A stretch of DNA of 37,873 nucleotides, taken from positions 1 to 37,873 of the forward strand of contig JAAZEL010000090.1 of the NCBI GenBank assembly GCA_012512325.1, written 5' to 3'. Each line of letters starts with the position of its first letter. The stretch's first letter is position 1. A program made the translations under genes and the position numbers. Shown in pieces: positions 21,937 to 28,469 of this stretch. The notes beneath the pieces are model-generated. The model searched no databases, was not told where the DNA came from, and worked only from the letters and a program-made list of their open reading frames with translations. This stretch comes from Candidatus Fermentithermobacillaceae bacterium. Lineage in GTDB: Bacteria > Bacillota > Sulfobacillia > Fermentithermobacillales > Fermentithermobacillaceae.

Positions 21937-22644
21937 TTACATAATCGAGCCAAGATCCTTTTTTATATAGGGACCAAAAGACCCATTTTGGGAGGAACAA
22001 AGGGCTTTCATCACCGCGATGGCTGCCTGGGTTCTGTCCCTGACCCCCAGTTTCTTGTAAACATTGTACAGGTGGTTCTTGACGGTTTTCTCGCTGATGA
22101 ACAGTTGCTGAGCTATGGCCTTGTTGGACATACCCTTAGCCACAAGTTTGAGAGTCTCCAGCTCCCTTTCGCTGAGCTTGTCTACATCAGCAGGCTTAGA
22201 GTCTATGCTGGCGAATATCTCCAGGAAATGGGGGACACCGGAAGCTGCCAACTTATCAGCTATCGAGGACGAAATGTACACGTCCCTTCTTGAAGCGGCC
22301 GAGATGGCTGACACCAGCTGGTCGCAGGTCGCATGTTCGTCCACAAACCCGTATACACCCGCCCTGCAGTACTCGGCTATGGCGAACCACTGCAGGTTCT
22401 TGCATATCAGCACAAGACTGCAATCGGCGTACCGTCTCTTCAGGAAACCTATTCTTTCCAGGGTGAGTTGCCTGCCAGAATGATCGCTTCCAATCACGAT
22501 CACGTCATATCCGCCGGCAGGCTTCCTGCGTTCAAGATTTCCTGCGCCTTTGTACCACAGACGGACGTCGTCCCGCTCCTTTGAAATGGCTTGAAACTCT
22601 CTCCGCCATGCAGACTGTTCTACCGCAATCAGAACGTCAAGCAT
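21937..22644 (-). CDS. LuxR/NarL-type transcription regulator with a degenerate receiver domain
   Basis: The C-terminal 70 residues are a standard LuxR helix-turn-helix: LSERELETLKLVAKGMSNK, then AQQLFISEKTVKNHLYNVYKKLGV (about 157-202). The N-terminal part has the size and hydrophobic pattern of a receiver (MLDVLIAVEQ, YDVIVIGSDH, LVLICKN, GVYGFVDE), but key residues are missing. The acidic pair is replaced by AVEQ, and the phospho-acceptor position after YDVIVI is Gly52. It is probably not activated by a histidine kinase in the normal way. The ATG at 22644 has GGGGG 6 nt upstream, while a longer frame to 22794 runs into the preceding gene. It lies 52 bp after the PilT-like gene and is followed by a terminator. 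Confidence 0.85.
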   Translation of the reverse strand: MLDVLIAVEQSAWRREFQAISKERDDVRLWYKGAGNLERRKPAGGYDVIVIGSDHSGRQLTLERIGFLKRRYADCSLVLICKNLQWFAIAEYCRAGVYGFVDEHATCDQLVSAISAASRRDVYISSSIADKLAASGVPHFLEIFASIDSKPADVDKLSERELETLKLVAKGMSNKAIAQQLFISEKTVKNHLYNVYKKLGVRDRTQAAIAVMKALCSSQNGSFGPYIKKDLGSIM

Positions 22645-22696
22645 AGAATGCCCCCAATGACAAGTCTCACTAGGTATAATCGGATAAGAACCCGGC

Positions 22697-23707
22697 CTAG
22701 ATAAGACCTTCATCGGACAAACGCTTCCTGGCCGCCTCCAAGGTCTGCATCCCATACTTGCCGCCTGCGTGGATGAGGTCAGGGAGCTGAGCAAACTTGC
22801 CTTCTTTAAGGAGATTGCGCACCGGGTCCGTTCCTACGAGGATTTCCATTACAGCCACAGGCGCCTTTATCCCACGGACAAGTTCCTGATACAAGGCCCC
22901 GCCGAACACCTCGGACAGTCTGGCAATGAACTCCCTGCGCAAATCCGAGTTCACTGTATTGGCCAGGTTTTGGAGCCCGTTGGCTGTATCACAAGCGGGG
23001 AGCACCATAAACACCCTTGCTCCTCTTTCCGCCGCCAGCACCGCCTGCCACGCCAGCTTGTCGTCTACCTGCAAGTCCAGGGCTACTACATCCGCTCCCA
23101 TCCAGACAGCGGTCTCGACCGGCCCACTCCCATACATCAAATGCCCGGTTTCAACTTGATTCACAAAAGCCCTGCCCGGAGCTAACAAGTACTCGGCCGC
23201 CCCACAAAGCCAGGCTATGTACCTGAAGGATGTAGCGTTCATGTATTGCAGCACCGACGCCAGGGTAGTGGTCTTGCCTGACCGGGGTTTCCCGCAGATC
23301 AGGAACAGGCCCGGGCCGTTTGCAACCAGGTCCAGTACTTCTTCTGAGGTATTCAGTTCCTCGGGGCCTGGCAAGGGATCAGGCAGGAAGTGCATGACAA
23401 GGGCAGGACCGCCTACAGTCATGATCAGGTCAACCCGGCACCTCGCCCCGGCGCACAGGTGAAACCCAAACCGGGCAAAACCCGTTGAGTCGAAAAGCTG
23501 CCGGTGGGGTGTAGGCACTTGGCTGCTCAGGAACTCCTCTATGTGGTGTTCTTCAACGGCGGGGAGATCAAGCCGGACGGGCTCGTCCAACCCTATTCCG
23601 GCCAGGGGCCTATGGTGCGGCATTAGGTACAGATACCAAGCACCCCTCTGGACACAGGATTGGGCAAGACGGGAAAGGTAAGGCAATCCTTCTCCGGCAC
23701 GCGACAT
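22697..23707 (-). CDS. PilT-like secretion/twitching ATPase with degenerate catalytic boxes
   Basis: The 336-residue protein follows the PilT layout. An N-terminal domain of about 110 residues precedes Walker A GKPRSGKT at 139-146 and TLASVLQYMN, as in PilT. The C-terminus EILVGTDPVRNLLKEGKFAQ...GGKYGMQTLEAARK is very PilT-like. The Asp box (normally TIEDPIE) reads WLCGAAE. The Walker B/catalytic Glu motif (VGEMRD) reads ALDLQVD. The His box (GTLHT) reads MVLPA. So the fold is kept but hydrolysis is doubtful. The ATG at 23707 follows GGAGGG. It starts 15 bp after yqeG, a place where type IV pilus genes sit in some clostridia. No other pilus gene is present here. Confidence 0.82.
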   Translation of the reverse strand: MSRAGEGLPYLSRLAQSCVQRGAWYLYLMPHHRPLAGIGLDEPVRLDLPAVEEHHIEEFLSSQVPTPHRQLFDSTGFARFGFHLCAGARCRVDLIMTVGGPALVMHFLPDPLPGPEELNTSEEVLDLVANGPGLFLICGKPRSGKTTTLASVLQYMNATSFRYIAWLCGAAEYLLAPGRAFVNQVETGHLMYGSGPVETAVWMGADVVALDLQVDDKLAWQAVLAAERGARVFMVLPACDTANGLQNLANTVNSDLRREFIARLSEVFGGALYQELVRGIKAPVAVMEILVGTDPVRNLLKEGKFAQLPDLIHAGGKYGMQTLEAARKRLSDEGLI

Positions 23708-23721
23708 GGGGCCCCCTCCTC

Positions 23722-24249
23722 TCATGTCGTACCAATACGCTTTCTTACCAGCCTTTCAAGCAGCCTCATGATCTTCGTGCCCACAAACTCTTTGTGCCCG
23801 ATGCGCTCTACAAGCACCGTGTGGCAACCTACGAGATTTCCTCCAAGTACATCGGTAAACAGCTGGTCCCCGATAACGCATGTTTCGTGCGGCTTTGAAC
23901 CCAGCAACTCCAGGGCCCGCCTGAAGAAGCAGGAAACAGGTTTCTTGGCTCCTACAATTAGTTTCGTATTGAGTTTGCGCGACAGTTCAACGATGGTAGG
24001 GGCAGGCCGGGCGTTTGAGAGTATCAAAGTCTTGTAGCCCCTCCTGTGGAGGGAGTCAAACCAATCGGCAAGTTCCTCGGCAACCGTGTAGTCCCTCCAG
24101 GGGACAAGGGTGTTGTCCAGATCTGTGATAATCGACGTGATACCTCTTGCCTTGAGCCAATCAGGGGGCACATCATATATTGATTTCACGAATAACGACG
24201 GTGTCAGGAGCTGCCTGACAGTTCTTGGCTTTCCCGTATTGCCTGACAC
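23722..24249 (-). CDS. yqeG: YqeG family HAD IIIA-type phosphatase
   Basis: The 175-residue protein shows HAD motif I DLDNTLVPW (about 43-51), motif II LILSNA (about 75-80), and motif III/IV with a Lys in VGAKKPVSCFFRRAL and VIGDQLFTDVLGGN. The N-terminus (LLTPSLFVKSIYDVPPDWLKARG) is characteristic of YqeG, a Bacillota protein of incompletely known role related to mitochondrial PGP phosphatase Gep4. It starts with GTG after GGGAGGGGG. It lies between sigK and the PilT-like gene on the same strand. Confidence 0.92.
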   Translation of the reverse strand: MSGNTGKPRTVRQLLTPSLFVKSIYDVPPDWLKARGITSIITDLDNTLVPWRDYTVAEELADWFDSLHRRGYKTLILSNARPAPTIVELSRKLNTKLIVGAKKPVSCFFRRALELLGSKPHETCVIGDQLFTDVLGGNLVGCHTVLVERIGHKEFVGTKIMRLLERLVRKRIGTT

Positions 24250-24345: not shown

Positions 24346-25047
24346 TCAGGTAACGTAGAGTCTGCAAGTTCTCGCAAGCTTGGCAAGGGCCCTCTTTTCG
24401 ATACGGCTCACATATGAGCGGGATATTCCAAGCATATTTGCTATTTCCCTCTGGGTTCTCTGGAGGTTGCCGTTCAAGCCATACCGGAACTGCAGCACTT
24501 TCTTCTCCTTTTCATCCAATACGTCAAAACGCGCAAGCACGTTTTCAGCCTGGAGCTTGGCGGTAACCAGGTCGGCAATGTCGGGCTCCTGATCCTTGAT
24601 AATGTCGATATACGACACTTCGCCTTCTTCTGAACCCGATGTCAAAGGCTCAAACAGATGCATTTCGCTCCTGCTGTTCTTGGTTGCCCTAAGATGCATT
24701 AAGATTTCGTTCTCAATGCACTTTGACGCGTATGTGGCCAGCCTGGTCCCTCTGTCCCGGCTAAAGGTGTCTATGGCCTTGACAAGTCCGATGCTCCCTA
24801 TGGATATGAGGTCTTCCACATCCTGGGGATTGGGGTCAAACTTCTTCACAATGTGGGCCACCAACCTCAAGTTGTGCTCCACCAGGAGGTGTCTGCTGGC
24901 CATGTTCCCTTCCCTCACCCCGTCCAGGTGGAGGGACTCTTCGGTTTCAGAAAGGGGCGGGCGAAAATGATTGCCTGTAAGATATCCGAAGCAGTTGACG
25001 ATCGCCTCTAAGAGGATAGCCGCTATACCAAGAAGCAGCTCATGCAA
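24346..25047 (-). CDS. sigK: Mother-cell sporulation sigma factor SigK (pro-sigma-K)
   Basis: SigK directs late mother-cell transcription (coat, cortex, release). The protein shows region 2 (EHNLRLVAHIVKKF, EDLISIGSIGLVKAI, ATYASKCIENEILMHLR) and region 4 (TQREIANMLGISRSYVSRIEKRAL), matching SigK better than SigE. The frame is open to 25092, but the TTG at 25047 has GGAGGGG 8 nt upstream and gives 233 residues. Its N-terminus LHELLLGIAAILLEAI... aligns residue for residue with the hydrophobic pro-sequence of Bacillus SigK up to PPLSETEE. The gene is uninterrupted, so no skin-type element splits it. Confidence 0.93.
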   Translation of the reverse strand: MHELLLGIAAILLEAIVNCFGYLTGNHFRPPLSETEESLHLDGVREGNMASRHLLVEHNLRLVAHIVKKFDPNPQDVEDLISIGSIGLVKAIDTFSRDRGTRLATYASKCIENEILMHLRATKNSRSEMHLFEPLTSGSEEGEVSYIDIIKDQEPDIADLVTAKLQAENVLARFDVLDEKEKKVLQFRYGLNGNLQRTQREIANMLGISRSYVSRIEKRALAKLARTCRLYVT

Positions 25048-25143
25048 GCTCAAGTCCCCTCCGGTCAAAACAGATTGGGCCTGCCATGGCACATCTACAT
25101 CCTATGACGTGGAGGCCATGTGCGTGCGTGTCCCTGACCGAAA

Positions 25144-26544
25144 TCAGACCGTGTCAGCGGAGCTTGAAGGCTTGCGTCTCACCAGCACCACCGGAGTCTG
25201 CTGCTCCTGGTTGCCTGCGGGGTTGGTTGACATCACTTCTTCGAGCCACGCAGGATTCACCCCTGAAGAATAGCCCACAGCCCAGGCCACTCCAAGGTCG
25301 TTGGCGTCTACCACGGCGGCCTCACACCCCAACTCCCGGGCTATCTTGTTTGACAGGCCGGAAGGGTCCTCAGGCCCCATGATGACGCAATAGTCATAGG
25401 GGGGCAAGCTACCCAACACATCATCGATTTGCCCTGCATCCCGGCCTCCCACCAGGTAGAACCAGCCTTTCTTGCCCAGCAGCTTGCCAACCGCACCTGC
25501 CGCGGCCGCAAACAGCGTCTTTACGGTTCCAATCTCCTCGAGCAAGACCTGCATTGACAAGGGGTTGGCCATGGGCGCCGCTCCGCCGAAAGGGATGTCT
25601 TTCTGATCCACGAAACGGGACAGGGTTTTGGCAAGCAGGCCGGGTTCAACCGCCCCTTCCATGAAAATGCGCCCTTCCATGAGTCCTGCAACGCATGAAG
25701 AGAGGGTTGCTATGTCCCCGGGCAGGGGTTGGGTCACAAACTCCTTCATTGCCTGTACAGGGTCATCCTTTTCCGTGAACAGCCTGGTCTTGATCGGGAT
25801 GAGCAGGACGTCTGCCGGAGGCCTCTTGCCTCTCACGGGAATTGGGGGCAAGTCTTCCTGTTTTCCAAACCCAAGACTCTCCCATGCCTGTCTTAGCAGG
25901 AGGCTCCTGGGATACGCCCTTATGCCCAGGGAGAGGATGTCCCGGGCCTCATCCCTGCGGCCCCTGTCAATCAGGCCTCGCACAAGTATGTGAAACTCAT
26001 GATCATGGAAATTGGATGACTCTAATTTGATGAACTCAGCCAAACAATCTATGAGTTCATCTTCCATGCCCTTTTCCTCCAGAAGACGGCTCACCCGTTT
26101 GTAAGCAACCTTGAGAGGGTTCTTCCGGTTGAGCTCCTTGCACACGCGGAGCGCCTTCTTGAACGACTCAAAGGCGGCTTCCCTGTCTTCCATGAAGAAG
26201 TACTGGATGTCTCCGATGAGTAGGTAAGGCCACGGGTTCTGAGGTTCAATCCGCGACAAGCGCCGGGCCACATCAAGGGCTCTTTGATACTGCTTGTCTT
26301 TGATAAACACGTGGATCAAAAGCCGCCCGCATCTGAGTGAGGGCCTTTTTTCAAGGGCACCCGCAAGCAGCTTCCTGGCTCCGTCGGTGTTACCTGAACG
26401 GATCAGCTCCTTGGCGGCCATGTATACAACGTAAGGATGGTGTCCCGGCTTTGCATACCTGGCAAACCCTCTGGATGCGATTGATTTGAGCCCCAGCACG
26501 TCAAGGAACCACATCAGATAGACCACGGCTGAACCCAATGGCAA
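25144..26544 (-). CDS. TPR-repeat protein fused to a CofE (F420-0:gamma-glutamyl ligase)-like domain
   Basis: The N-terminal half (about 35-230) is made of helical repeats with TPR spacing, such as ARKLLAGALEKRP, ALDVARRLSRIEPQNPWPYLLIGD and AAFESFKKALRV. A short hydrophobic segment precedes it (about 3-18). The C-terminal half (about 244-456) resembles bacterial F420-0 gamma-glutamyl-ligase-like proteins: DVLLIPIKTRLFTEKDD, LPGDIATLSSCVAGLMEGR, KPGLLAKTLSRF-type sequence, AGAVGKLLGKKGWFYLVGG and the motif VVDANDLGVAW with a final QTPVVLVRR. Substrate and reaction are unknown. Real F420 use is not implied by this window. The start is TTG at 26544 (or TTG at 26538). It lies just upstream of sigK on the same strand. 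Confidence 0.75.
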   Translation of the reverse strand: MPLGSAVVYLMWFLDVLGLKSIASRGFARYAKPGHHPYVVYMAAKELIRSGNTDGARKLLAGALEKRPSLRCGRLLIHVFIKDKQYQRALDVARRLSRIEPQNPWPYLLIGDIQYFFMEDREAAFESFKKALRVCKELNRKNPLKVAYKRVSRLLEEKGMEDELIDCLAEFIKLESSNFHDHEFHILVRGLIDRGRRDEARDILSLGIRAYPRSLLLRQAWESLGFGKQEDLPPIPVRGKRPPADVLLIPIKTRLFTEKDDPVQAMKEFVTQPLPGDIATLSSCVAGLMEGRIFMEGAVEPGLLAKTLSRFVDQKDIPFGGAAPMANPLSMQVLLEEIGTVKTLFAAAAGAVGKLLGKKGWFYLVGGRDAGQIDDVLGSLPPYDYCVIMGPEDPSGLSNKIARELGCEAAVVDANDLGVAWAVGYSSGVNPAWLEEVMSTNPAGNQEQQTPVVLVRRKPSSSADTV

Positions 26545-26604: not shown

Positions 26605-28293
26605 CTACCTGCAATGAAGCAACCGTTCCGCTATCTTTCTGAAGATGGGAGCCGCCACAGTGGGCCCGTCACCGGCCCTTTCGCAAAACACGCATATAAC
26701 GTACTTGGGAGACAGGATTGGGGTCCACCCTACGAACCACCCGTGACTTGACGGAGGGCTGCCTGTTATCTCGGCAGTCCCGGTCTTACCTGCACTGCCG
26801 AAACCAGGCACCCATGCTGCGGCACCTGTGCCTTCCTGCGTGCAGAGGAGCAGCGCCTCCTGCAAGAAGACAGACACCTCTTCTGAGAACAAGATCTCTT
26901 CCCTTGCATCAGTACCTGGGACAAGAACTGGGTTTCTCCATTTTCCCCCAGCCACAACAGCCCTGTAAAAACAAGCTGCCTGGAGCGGGGTAACTGTCAG
27001 GTAGCCCTGGCCTATGGAGTAATTTGCCACATCCCCCGGAAGCATTGAACTTGGGGTAGGCAGAAGCCCGGCAGATTGTCCGGCAAGGGGAAGCTTCAGG
27101 ATTCTCCCGAATCCGCAACGGAGCGCCCAGTCAACCAACTCTTGAGGCGGGATCCTCGACGCGACCCTGACCATGGCGCAATTGCACGACTCAGCCAAGG
27201 CCTGCTTTAGTGTAAGCTTGCCGTGGCCTTCGGGGAAAGCGGCACATCTTATTACCCCGGTACCGACCTGGACTTGACCCCGGCACTCAAACTCCTCTTC
27301 AGGGCTCACGTAGCCCTTCTCAAGGGCCAGCGCCAGCACCACGGTTTTCCAAATCGACCCCGGTGCAAAATCACTGATGTTCCTGTTTACAAAAGGGGAA
27401 TCGGGAAGTCCGAAGTACTCTTCCGGACGGTTCTGGTCGTACTGAGGCCTGGATGCCATGGCGAGGACATCGCCGCTCATTGCATCCAAGACCACCGCCC
27501 CGCCCCTGGAGATCCCCTCCTCGTCCAACACACGCTCCAGGCAGTATTGGACGTGCGCATCCAGGGTGGTGATGAGGTCTTCCGGATGCTCACCGGTGGA
27601 GCCTATTCTTACACCTGAGCCTGGGAGCTCCAAACCGTCCCCTGTAACCAGGGTTCCCACCCATAGCGGAGTTCCCCCTGTAAGCCAGGTTTGAAACCAT
27701 TTCTCGAGCCCGCTTTCGCCGACGTTGTCCTTGGGGTTTACATGTGCATTGGGCCTTATATGCCCCACTACATGCCTTGCCAGGGACCCGGGACCATATC
27801 TCAGTTCTTCAGGGATCACCACAAGCCCCGGTATGGAACGGGACATAATTGCCTCCGCTTGCTCAGGAGGGAGCTCTCTCAACAGTTTGAAGGGAGCGGC
27901 CTGGTGGTTCAGGCTTTCCCTGAGGTCATCTTCATCGATCCCGACCAGGGTCGACACCTCTGCAATGAACCTTTCCCGGTCTTCGATCCGGGCGGGAAAG
28001 ACAGCCAGAGCCGATTGCCAGCAAGGGTAATGGAGGGGCACGCCGTTCCTGCCAAGTATCCTGCCCCTGGCCAAGGCCACAGGTACGCTTTCCCGCCTCT
28101 GCACGGAGGCTGGTTTGATGTACTTGATCCCCGCAACAGAGTCTATAATCTGGTAATTGATCAGCAGGCCAAGGAAAAACAAAAATACACAGCCGAACCC
28201 ACACAGGACGTGTGTTATCCTGGAACAGGCGGCTGCACCGCCTGAAGGTCCCCCGCCGCTGCCATAAGCCCTGGACTCTCGGTTCTTTCCCAC
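26605..28293 (-). CDS. Class B penicillin-binding protein (transpeptidase)
   Basis: This is a peptidoglycan transpeptidase of the FtsI/PBP2 family. Numbered from the GTG at 28293 (ribosome-binding site AGGGAGG), the 562-residue protein has one transmembrane helix at about 27-46, a dimerisation domain (RGRILGRNG near 80) and a transpeptidase domain with all three motifs: SIWK at 313-316, SCN at 369-371 and KTG at 503-505. The order and GVVLDAMSGDVLAMASRP-type sequence are typical. There is no PASTA domain. The frame is open to 28404 (ATG), but without a ribosome-binding site. The gene could serve elongation or sporulation. The context (sigK nearby) mildly suggests sporulation, but this is unproven. 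Confidence 0.9.
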   Translation of the reverse strand: MGKNRESRAYGSGGGPSGGAAACSRITHVLCGFGCVFLFFLGLLINYQIIDSVAGIKYIKPASVQRRESVPVALARGRILGRNGVPLHYPCWQSALAVFPARIEDRERFIAEVSTLVGIDEDDLRESLNHQAAPFKLLRELPPEQAEAIMSRSIPGLVVIPEELRYGPGSLARHVVGHIRPNAHVNPKDNVGESGLEKWFQTWLTGGTPLWVGTLVTGDGLELPGSGVRIGSTGEHPEDLITTLDAHVQYCLERVLDEEGISRGGAVVLDAMSGDVLAMASRPQYDQNRPEEYFGLPDSPFVNRNISDFAPGSIWKTVVLALALEKGYVSPEEEFECRGQVQVGTGVIRCAAFPEGHGKLTLKQALAESCNCAMVRVASRIPPQELVDWALRCGFGRILKLPLAGQSAGLLPTPSSMLPGDVANYSIGQGYLTVTPLQAACFYRAVVAGGKWRNPVLVPGTDAREEILFSEEVSVFLQEALLLCTQEGTGAAAWVPGFGSAGKTGTAEITGSPPSSHGWFVGWTPILSPKYVICVFCERAGDGPTVAAPIFRKIAERLLHCR

Positions 28294-28469
28294 GCCGGCC
28301 TCCCTGAACCTGAAAAACCTGGTCACATGCCTTAGTAGGTTTCCACTCAAAATCACGGCTTTATGCTCAAACGCATCAGGTTTTGGCCCGCCGGGCATGC
28401 CCATGTGTAAGGCCTGCAGGATCTCAAGGGCGTACTCTCACAGGTTTCCAGTTACGGGGTATCCCGCGA

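Follow-up and report, generated by a model that had tools for sequence, protein, structure and literature searches.

CofE is a GTP-dependent amide-forming enzyme whose β-hairpin and residue R234 contact F420, as described in the available portion of PMC10861534. Its fold also occurs outside F420 synthesis: the Chlamydia CofE homologue CT611 (FolC2) replaces FolC and rescues an E. coli strain mutated in folC (PMC1971073, in the part accessible to us), so a change of substrate is known for the CofE fold. Among enzymes of the cell envelope, Listeria AsnB amidates mDAP in peptidoglycan, according to the accessible text of PMC8554201. A review of F420 places Firmicutes among the phyla with F420 genes, and its available sections do not include the CofE-like Bacillota family described here (PMC8498797). 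A literature search, mostly outside subscription journals, likewise brought up no apparent study of this family, its fusions or the form in which it is joined to tetratricopeptide repeats (TPRs). The fold is already known; the family as a whole, together with its fused and TPR-bearing forms, is apparently uncharacterised. To our knowledge, no activity or substrate has been assigned to any family member.

The TPR–CofE-like gene and its two halves

The gene lies in a window of 37,873 nucleotides (the whole stretch of DNA analysed, contig JAAZEL010000090.1) from an uncultured, heat-loving Candidatus Fermentithermobacillaceae bacterium whose genome of 1.66 Mb is 96.65% complete. It occupies positions 25144–26544 on the minus strand and encodes 466 residues from a TTG start; AAAGGGG, which stands three bases ahead of the TTG, may be the ribosome-binding site. 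Its neighbours, on the same strand and taken here as context only, are those that the first-pass annotation had named as sporulation and cell-wall genes: sigK (24346–25092), 51 nt downstream, and a class-B penicillin-binding protein (PBP) of the PBP2/SpoVD type (26605–28404), 60 nt upstream. The SigK product passed NF004471 and, at 286.3 bits, falls slightly under the TIGR02846 cut-off of 298.65. Eight relatives of the fusion protein occur in named records at 66–88% identity, in Candidatus Fermentithermobacillaceae MAGs and one record titled Bacillota bacterium.

Residues 35–225 (25870–26442, minus strand) form a TPR array. By Pfam, TPR_14 (PF13428) matches at 5.6e-11, with 42.4 bits against a cut-off of 23.5, and TPR_19 matches at 1.9e-8; the protein is therefore a TPR protein by a profile over its cut-off, and the proposed scaffold is real. 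In the AF2 model, residues 1 to about 225 fold into paired helices (block pLDDT 71–95), and the Foldseek matches of this half are TPR proteins, including YrrB, MamA and LapB. Ahead of the array, AF2 and hydropathy place a short hydrophobic helix with a conserved Asp at residues 3–16 (26497–26538, minus strand). A hydrophobic N-terminus had been claimed; it exists as this helix, with a peak Kyte-Doolittle-15 value of 1.83 that is weaker than two ordinary export or anchor segments measured identically (2.25 and 2.63). The helix could contact the membrane or cap the TPRs. LapB (YciM) also bears an N-terminal hydrophobic helix, a combination with TPRs that the window protein shares with it and other TPR scaffolds, and the LapB cytoplasmic domain (4zlh) is among the Foldseek matches of the TPR half at E of about 1.5e-5. 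Unlike LapB, the window protein scores 18.5 against the NCBIfam LapB cut-off of 363, and its C-terminal part is a CofE-like domain.

This second domain, of about 220 residues (244–460; 25165–25815, minus strand), is hard to recognise from one sequence. The full-length protein has no PF01996 match in Pfam at E ≤ 1, a PF01996 search of its own genome found none, and the domain has no NCBIfam match at E ≤ 1. In isolation the domain reaches E = 0.046 against PF01996, at 13.6 bits under a cut-off of 25, so that a single-sequence search taken alone would have spoken against CofE likeness. Relatives were found in 40 of the 61 related genomes, a few of them through weak matches confined to the TPR half; those that align across the whole CofE-like domain do so at 31–43% identity. 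Seven of the ten proteins scanned exceed the PF01996 cut-off, the best at 2.1e-14 (L030); the three beneath it are the window domain, L013, likewise a TPR fusion, and L020. At E ≤ 1, TIGR01916 (CofE) recognises 14 of the 17 proteins in the alignment, with a best value of 8.9e-7, and against the PDB the family profile finds nothing below E = 1 other than CofE structures (2g9i, 7uld and 2phn; E about 2.7e-5). These matches of the relatives settle the CofE-like nature of the second domain. In hhalign, the family and six genuine CofE proteins align with a probability of 96.6 and E = 5.9e-10 over 147 columns, a homology that spans CofE residues 11–164.

Structure prediction is consistent with this assignment. 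With a shallow alignment of nine close relatives, full-length AF2 gave no usable CofE domain, and a model of the domain alone from nine close relatives was poor (mean pLDDT 52). Searched with this low-confidence model, Foldseek returned CofE as its top five matches (E from 3.2e-4 to 2.0e-2), the sixth standing at E 2.7. On profile and model evidence together, the window domain belongs to the F420_ligase superfamily (PF01996 fold). The likeness to CofE read from the C-terminal half in the first-pass annotation thus holds; of the profile matches it pointed to, TPR was recovered directly and PF01996 through the relatives.

The family is homologous to CofE and the FbiB N-terminal domain (PF01996, TIGR01916; PDB 2g9i, 2phn, 7uld) and differs from them in its motifs. 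GRxWR and CANxGxDxSN, read off alignment A4 of six genuine CofE controls, occur in 6/6 of these and in none of 116 domain hits (75 distinct sequences, the remainder being duplicate loci). Conversely, DxND (matched as D.[NS]D) and NPxG[NQ] are present in all 116 hits and in none of the six. In the window protein they read DAND (residues 413–416; 25297–25308, minus strand) and NPAGN (residues 441–445; 25210–25224, minus strand). A further family motif, IDD, occupies residues 373–375 (25420–25428, minus strand), its first Asp being invariant in alignment A1. We considered whether IDD and DxND correspond to D109 and D150, the metal-binding aspartates of A. fulgidus CofE. HMMER aligns DxND with D150, whereas MAFFT and hhalign place it two columns off, and the correspondence was dropped, the metal aspartates having no certain place.

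Spread of the family and its envelope-type partners

With the family profile at E ≤ 1e-8, we found the family in 114 of 154 class genomes and in 159 of 398 sampled genomes of the phylum Bacillota; no relative was found in viral contigs. Present in two fifths of the sampled Bacillota genomes, this CofE-fold family may through name transfer be taken for F420 genes. Four architectures occur. The domain stands alone (about 220–260 residues); it follows an AMIN-like and Amidase_3 region in 17 of 75 distinct domains, AMIN-like being our own reading where Pfam names Amidase_3 alone; it follows an AsnB-type amidotransferase in L029, L030 and all 20 of the long frames examined (L148–L167); or it follows TPRs, as in the window, in 17/17 genomes of the window's order and 0/44 others. 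The AsnB–CofE-like frames of L148–L167 are single frames of about 830–996 residues, from many class genomes.

A quick tree of the 75 distinct domains gathers the TPR fusions in one clade with an SH-aLRT of 100, whose stem is long, at 1.68 changes per column; the TPR fusion arose once and is confined, in our sample, to the window's order. The AMIN/Amidase_3 fusions need three label changes, at least two of them forced by well-supported branches.

The partners of the other forms are of a cell-wall type. Of the first 20 loci with a stand-alone domain, 10 have an AMIN/Amidase_3 gene no more than four genes away from it, as do 6 of a further 20, leaving 24 of the 40 neighbourhoods without one; four loci with an uncalled stand-alone gene (L098, L132, L139 and L143) are scored as misses, and two of the amidase matches, L130 and L131, are weak (about 1e-29), L131 being without catalytic motifs. 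A decarboxylase, of the OKR fold or the unrelated pyruvoyl arginine type, lies within two genes in 7 of the first 20 and 5 of the further 20 loci, a count that leaves out the decarboxylases held by L132 and L139. The second 20 loci include two genomes from the window's order, and the models used to search them came from the first 20. SpoVB/MurJ-like genes occur at three stand-alone loci (L106, L112 and L113) and Amj at a fourth (L104).

Within the window's order, the arrangement decarboxylase–amidase–CofE-like recurs at L116, L117, L144 and L145, and an amidase at E ≤ 1e-60 adjoins the stand-alone domain in 13 of the 13 genomes having that amidase. The order OKR decarboxylase–AMIN/Amidase_3–CofE-like is also seen at L137 and L138, in the same class, and a pyruvoyl arginine decarboxylase lies near the family gene at L103, L104, L107 and L127. 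Three genes that are grouped in its relatives are absent from the genome of the window (G000): the CofE-like gene of the stand-alone type, the amidase that goes with it and the orthologue of the decarboxylase. A single gap in the assembly could account for their joint absence.

Judged roughly by hydropathy, the Amidase_3 copies, whether adjacent or fused, have no signal segment (peak 1.70 or less), and two ordinary amidases in the same loci show signal segments at 2.25 and 2.63; an exported Amidase_3 partner was rejected on this measure. The H-E-H-E motif set of Amidase_3 is kept in all ten fused copies aligned. Catalytic residues are lost in 6 of 16 adjacent copies aligned (L100, L102, L105, L106, L131 and L138), so that the partner need not be an amidase; such degenerate copies suggest, from their sequences, a role in binding rather than cutting. 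The fused AsnB resembles the mDAP-amidating amidotransferases and scores 204.5 bits against the TIGR01536 cut-off of 267.1, a truncated piece having been scored. In contrast to these fusions, the window protein has no amidotransferase domain.

A tentative envelope role and the case for a dead domain

The partners act, by family, on wall peptides or make amines, which would favour an amide-forming role at the envelope. We therefore propose, tentatively and at somewhat under even chances, that the window protein is a TPR-scaffolded, NTP-dependent amide-forming enzyme, or an inactive relative of one, and that its substrate belongs to the envelope of growing cells. The TPR scaffold, perhaps membrane-associated through its short N-terminal helix, would carry the divergent CofE-fold domain to a partner in the wall-building machinery. 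There, at the expense of a nucleoside triphosphate, the domain would form an amide between a carboxylate and an amine on a cytoplasmic, peptidoglycan-type molecule of the envelope, and not on F420. This chemistry is surmised from the fold, CofE's own motifs being missing. The envelope link comes from the paralogues, the TPR copy itself neighbouring only the PBP, which is not beside it in the seen flanks of genera g2, g4 and g5. Even so, the recurrent fusion and adjacency to cell-wall-type enzymes offer a concrete lead towards a new kind of amide formation at the envelope.

The main rival, which we hold to be unlikely yet in need of serious weighing, is that in the TPR fusion the CofE-fold domain no longer catalyses a reaction and is kept on its scaffold as a ligand- or protein-binding module. 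The loss of CofE motifs and the long stem leading to the TPR clade would fit such a history. So would two changes seen in the TPR members, SSCVAGLMEGR where the family has AESVVAIxQGR and about nine residues inserted ahead of the next conserved helix, and the partner amidases that have degenerated as well (the 6 of 16 adjacent copies). Against it, all 16 columns invariant in A1, including the IDD, DxND and NPxG[NQ] positions, are kept in its TPR members. The domain is also better conserved than the fusion protein as a whole (77–91% against 66–88% identity), with dN/dS of about 0.04–0.08 where computable.

Sporulation and the less probable readings

The first-pass annotation had suggested a spore or envelope role from the neighbouring genes. 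In favour of a SigK-controlled ligase, gamma-glutamyl or peptide, that serves the assembly of the spore or its envelope stand the PBP and sigK, which flank the gene closely on one strand, and the conservation of this arrangement in L002–L005 and L009–L012. However, in L013–L016 the fusion gene is not beside sigK, which these genomes carry elsewhere, so that the suggested fusion–sigK association was found at part of the loci surveyed and fails in L013–L016 and in genus g4.

Genus g4 (G007, G010 and G012; L006–L008 and L035–L037) comprises three genomes, 92, 92 and 85% complete, in which the site reads galU–TPR/CofE-like–yqeG, with neither the PBP nor sigK. SpoIVA was found in 0/3 of them and in 14/14 of the others, once as a fragment below the cut-off. 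A search for a SigK/SigE-class sigma factor gave none in g4, where the best E is about 1e-21; the remaining 14 genomes reach 1e-85 to 1e-89. g4 is apparently a sporulation-less genus inside a spore-forming family. All three genomes nonetheless retain the fusion gene, at 72–73% identity to the window's, and the gene is under purifying selection there: the only g4 pair in which neither half is saturated gives a dN/dS of 0.060 (domain) and 0.067 (TPR half). The stand-alone domain and its amidase are gone from this genus, and the decarboxylase remains.

Because g4 loses the stand-alone pair and keeps the TPR fusion, only the pair tracks sporulation in the window's order; the fusion does not follow it. 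The stand-alone copy beside the AMIN/Amidase_3 and decarboxylase genes may be the sporulation-linked one of the order. The loss of sporulation genes in g4 thus serves as a natural experiment, by which the role of the TPR fusion is not spore-specific, and a spore-only role is rejected on its retention there without SpoIVA, SigK or SigE. Across the 398 phylum genomes we found no association of the family with SpoIVA, which occurs in 136/159 family-positive and 199/239 family-negative genomes (335 in total, compared by hand from lists). A dedicated spore ligase under SigK is accordingly improbable; what stands of the suggested role is the family's envelope connection, through Amidase_3, AsnB and the MurJ/SpoVB/Amj-type genes.

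Some diderm Firmicutes link polyamines to peptidoglycan. A bolder form of the envelope reading, which with all its parts we consider a long shot, is that the family works in the cytoplasm on peptidoglycan precursors or muropeptides, coupling an amine or a glutamate to one of their carboxylates. The amine would be a diamine or agmatine supplied by the Arg/Lys/Orn-type decarboxylase encoded nearby, which comes in two unrelated folds. The AMIN/Amidase_3 protein would hold the substrate or set it free, amidation would fall to the AsnB partner, and the TPR version, attached to the wall machinery, would do the housekeeping. Were this true, enzymes of the type that makes the polyamine link would have a candidate in this family.

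It is more doubtful still that the protein is a folate gamma-glutamyl ligase. The precedent is CT611, a CofE-family protein outside F420 synthesis that shows that enzymes of this fold can switch substrate (PMC1971073, as far as available), and TIGR04132, a putative folate gamma-glutamate ligase model, weakly matches 5 of 17 members (best 0.0023). The window member itself does not match TIGR04132. Unlike the Chlamydia gene, which has a folate context, neither the window gene nor the stand-alone genes have a folate gene in view, among the annotated window neighbours or the 25 families listed near the stand-alone domain; neither the model nor the neighbourhood makes this a FolC2-type protein.

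That the protein is a genuine F420-0:gamma-glutamyl ligase with a TPR extension has next to no likelihood, for although the fold and the N-terminal half of the profile agree, the CofE motifs are absent, the domain ends early after the DxND region, where the CofE β-hairpin and R234 that touch F420 would lie, and CofG, the sole F420 gene besides CofE that was searched, is over its cut-off in 0/61 related genomes. True CofE identity was rejected on these three grounds, and the window domain is not a CofE by profile cut-off, motifs or the F420 genes of its genome, where TIGR01916 has no match at E ≤ 0.001. The first-pass annotation had rightly seen no F420 biosynthesis genes nearby, and no F420 pathway context surrounds the family; genuine CofE, over the TIGR01916 cut-off, is present in 10 of the 154 class genomes.

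Elsewhere in the window, a PilT-like ATPase gene (22697–23725; 131.7 bits against the TIGR01420 cut-off of 319.1) is poorly conserved among relatives, at about 29–64%, and is followed by a gene for a LuxR-type regulator (21937–22794).
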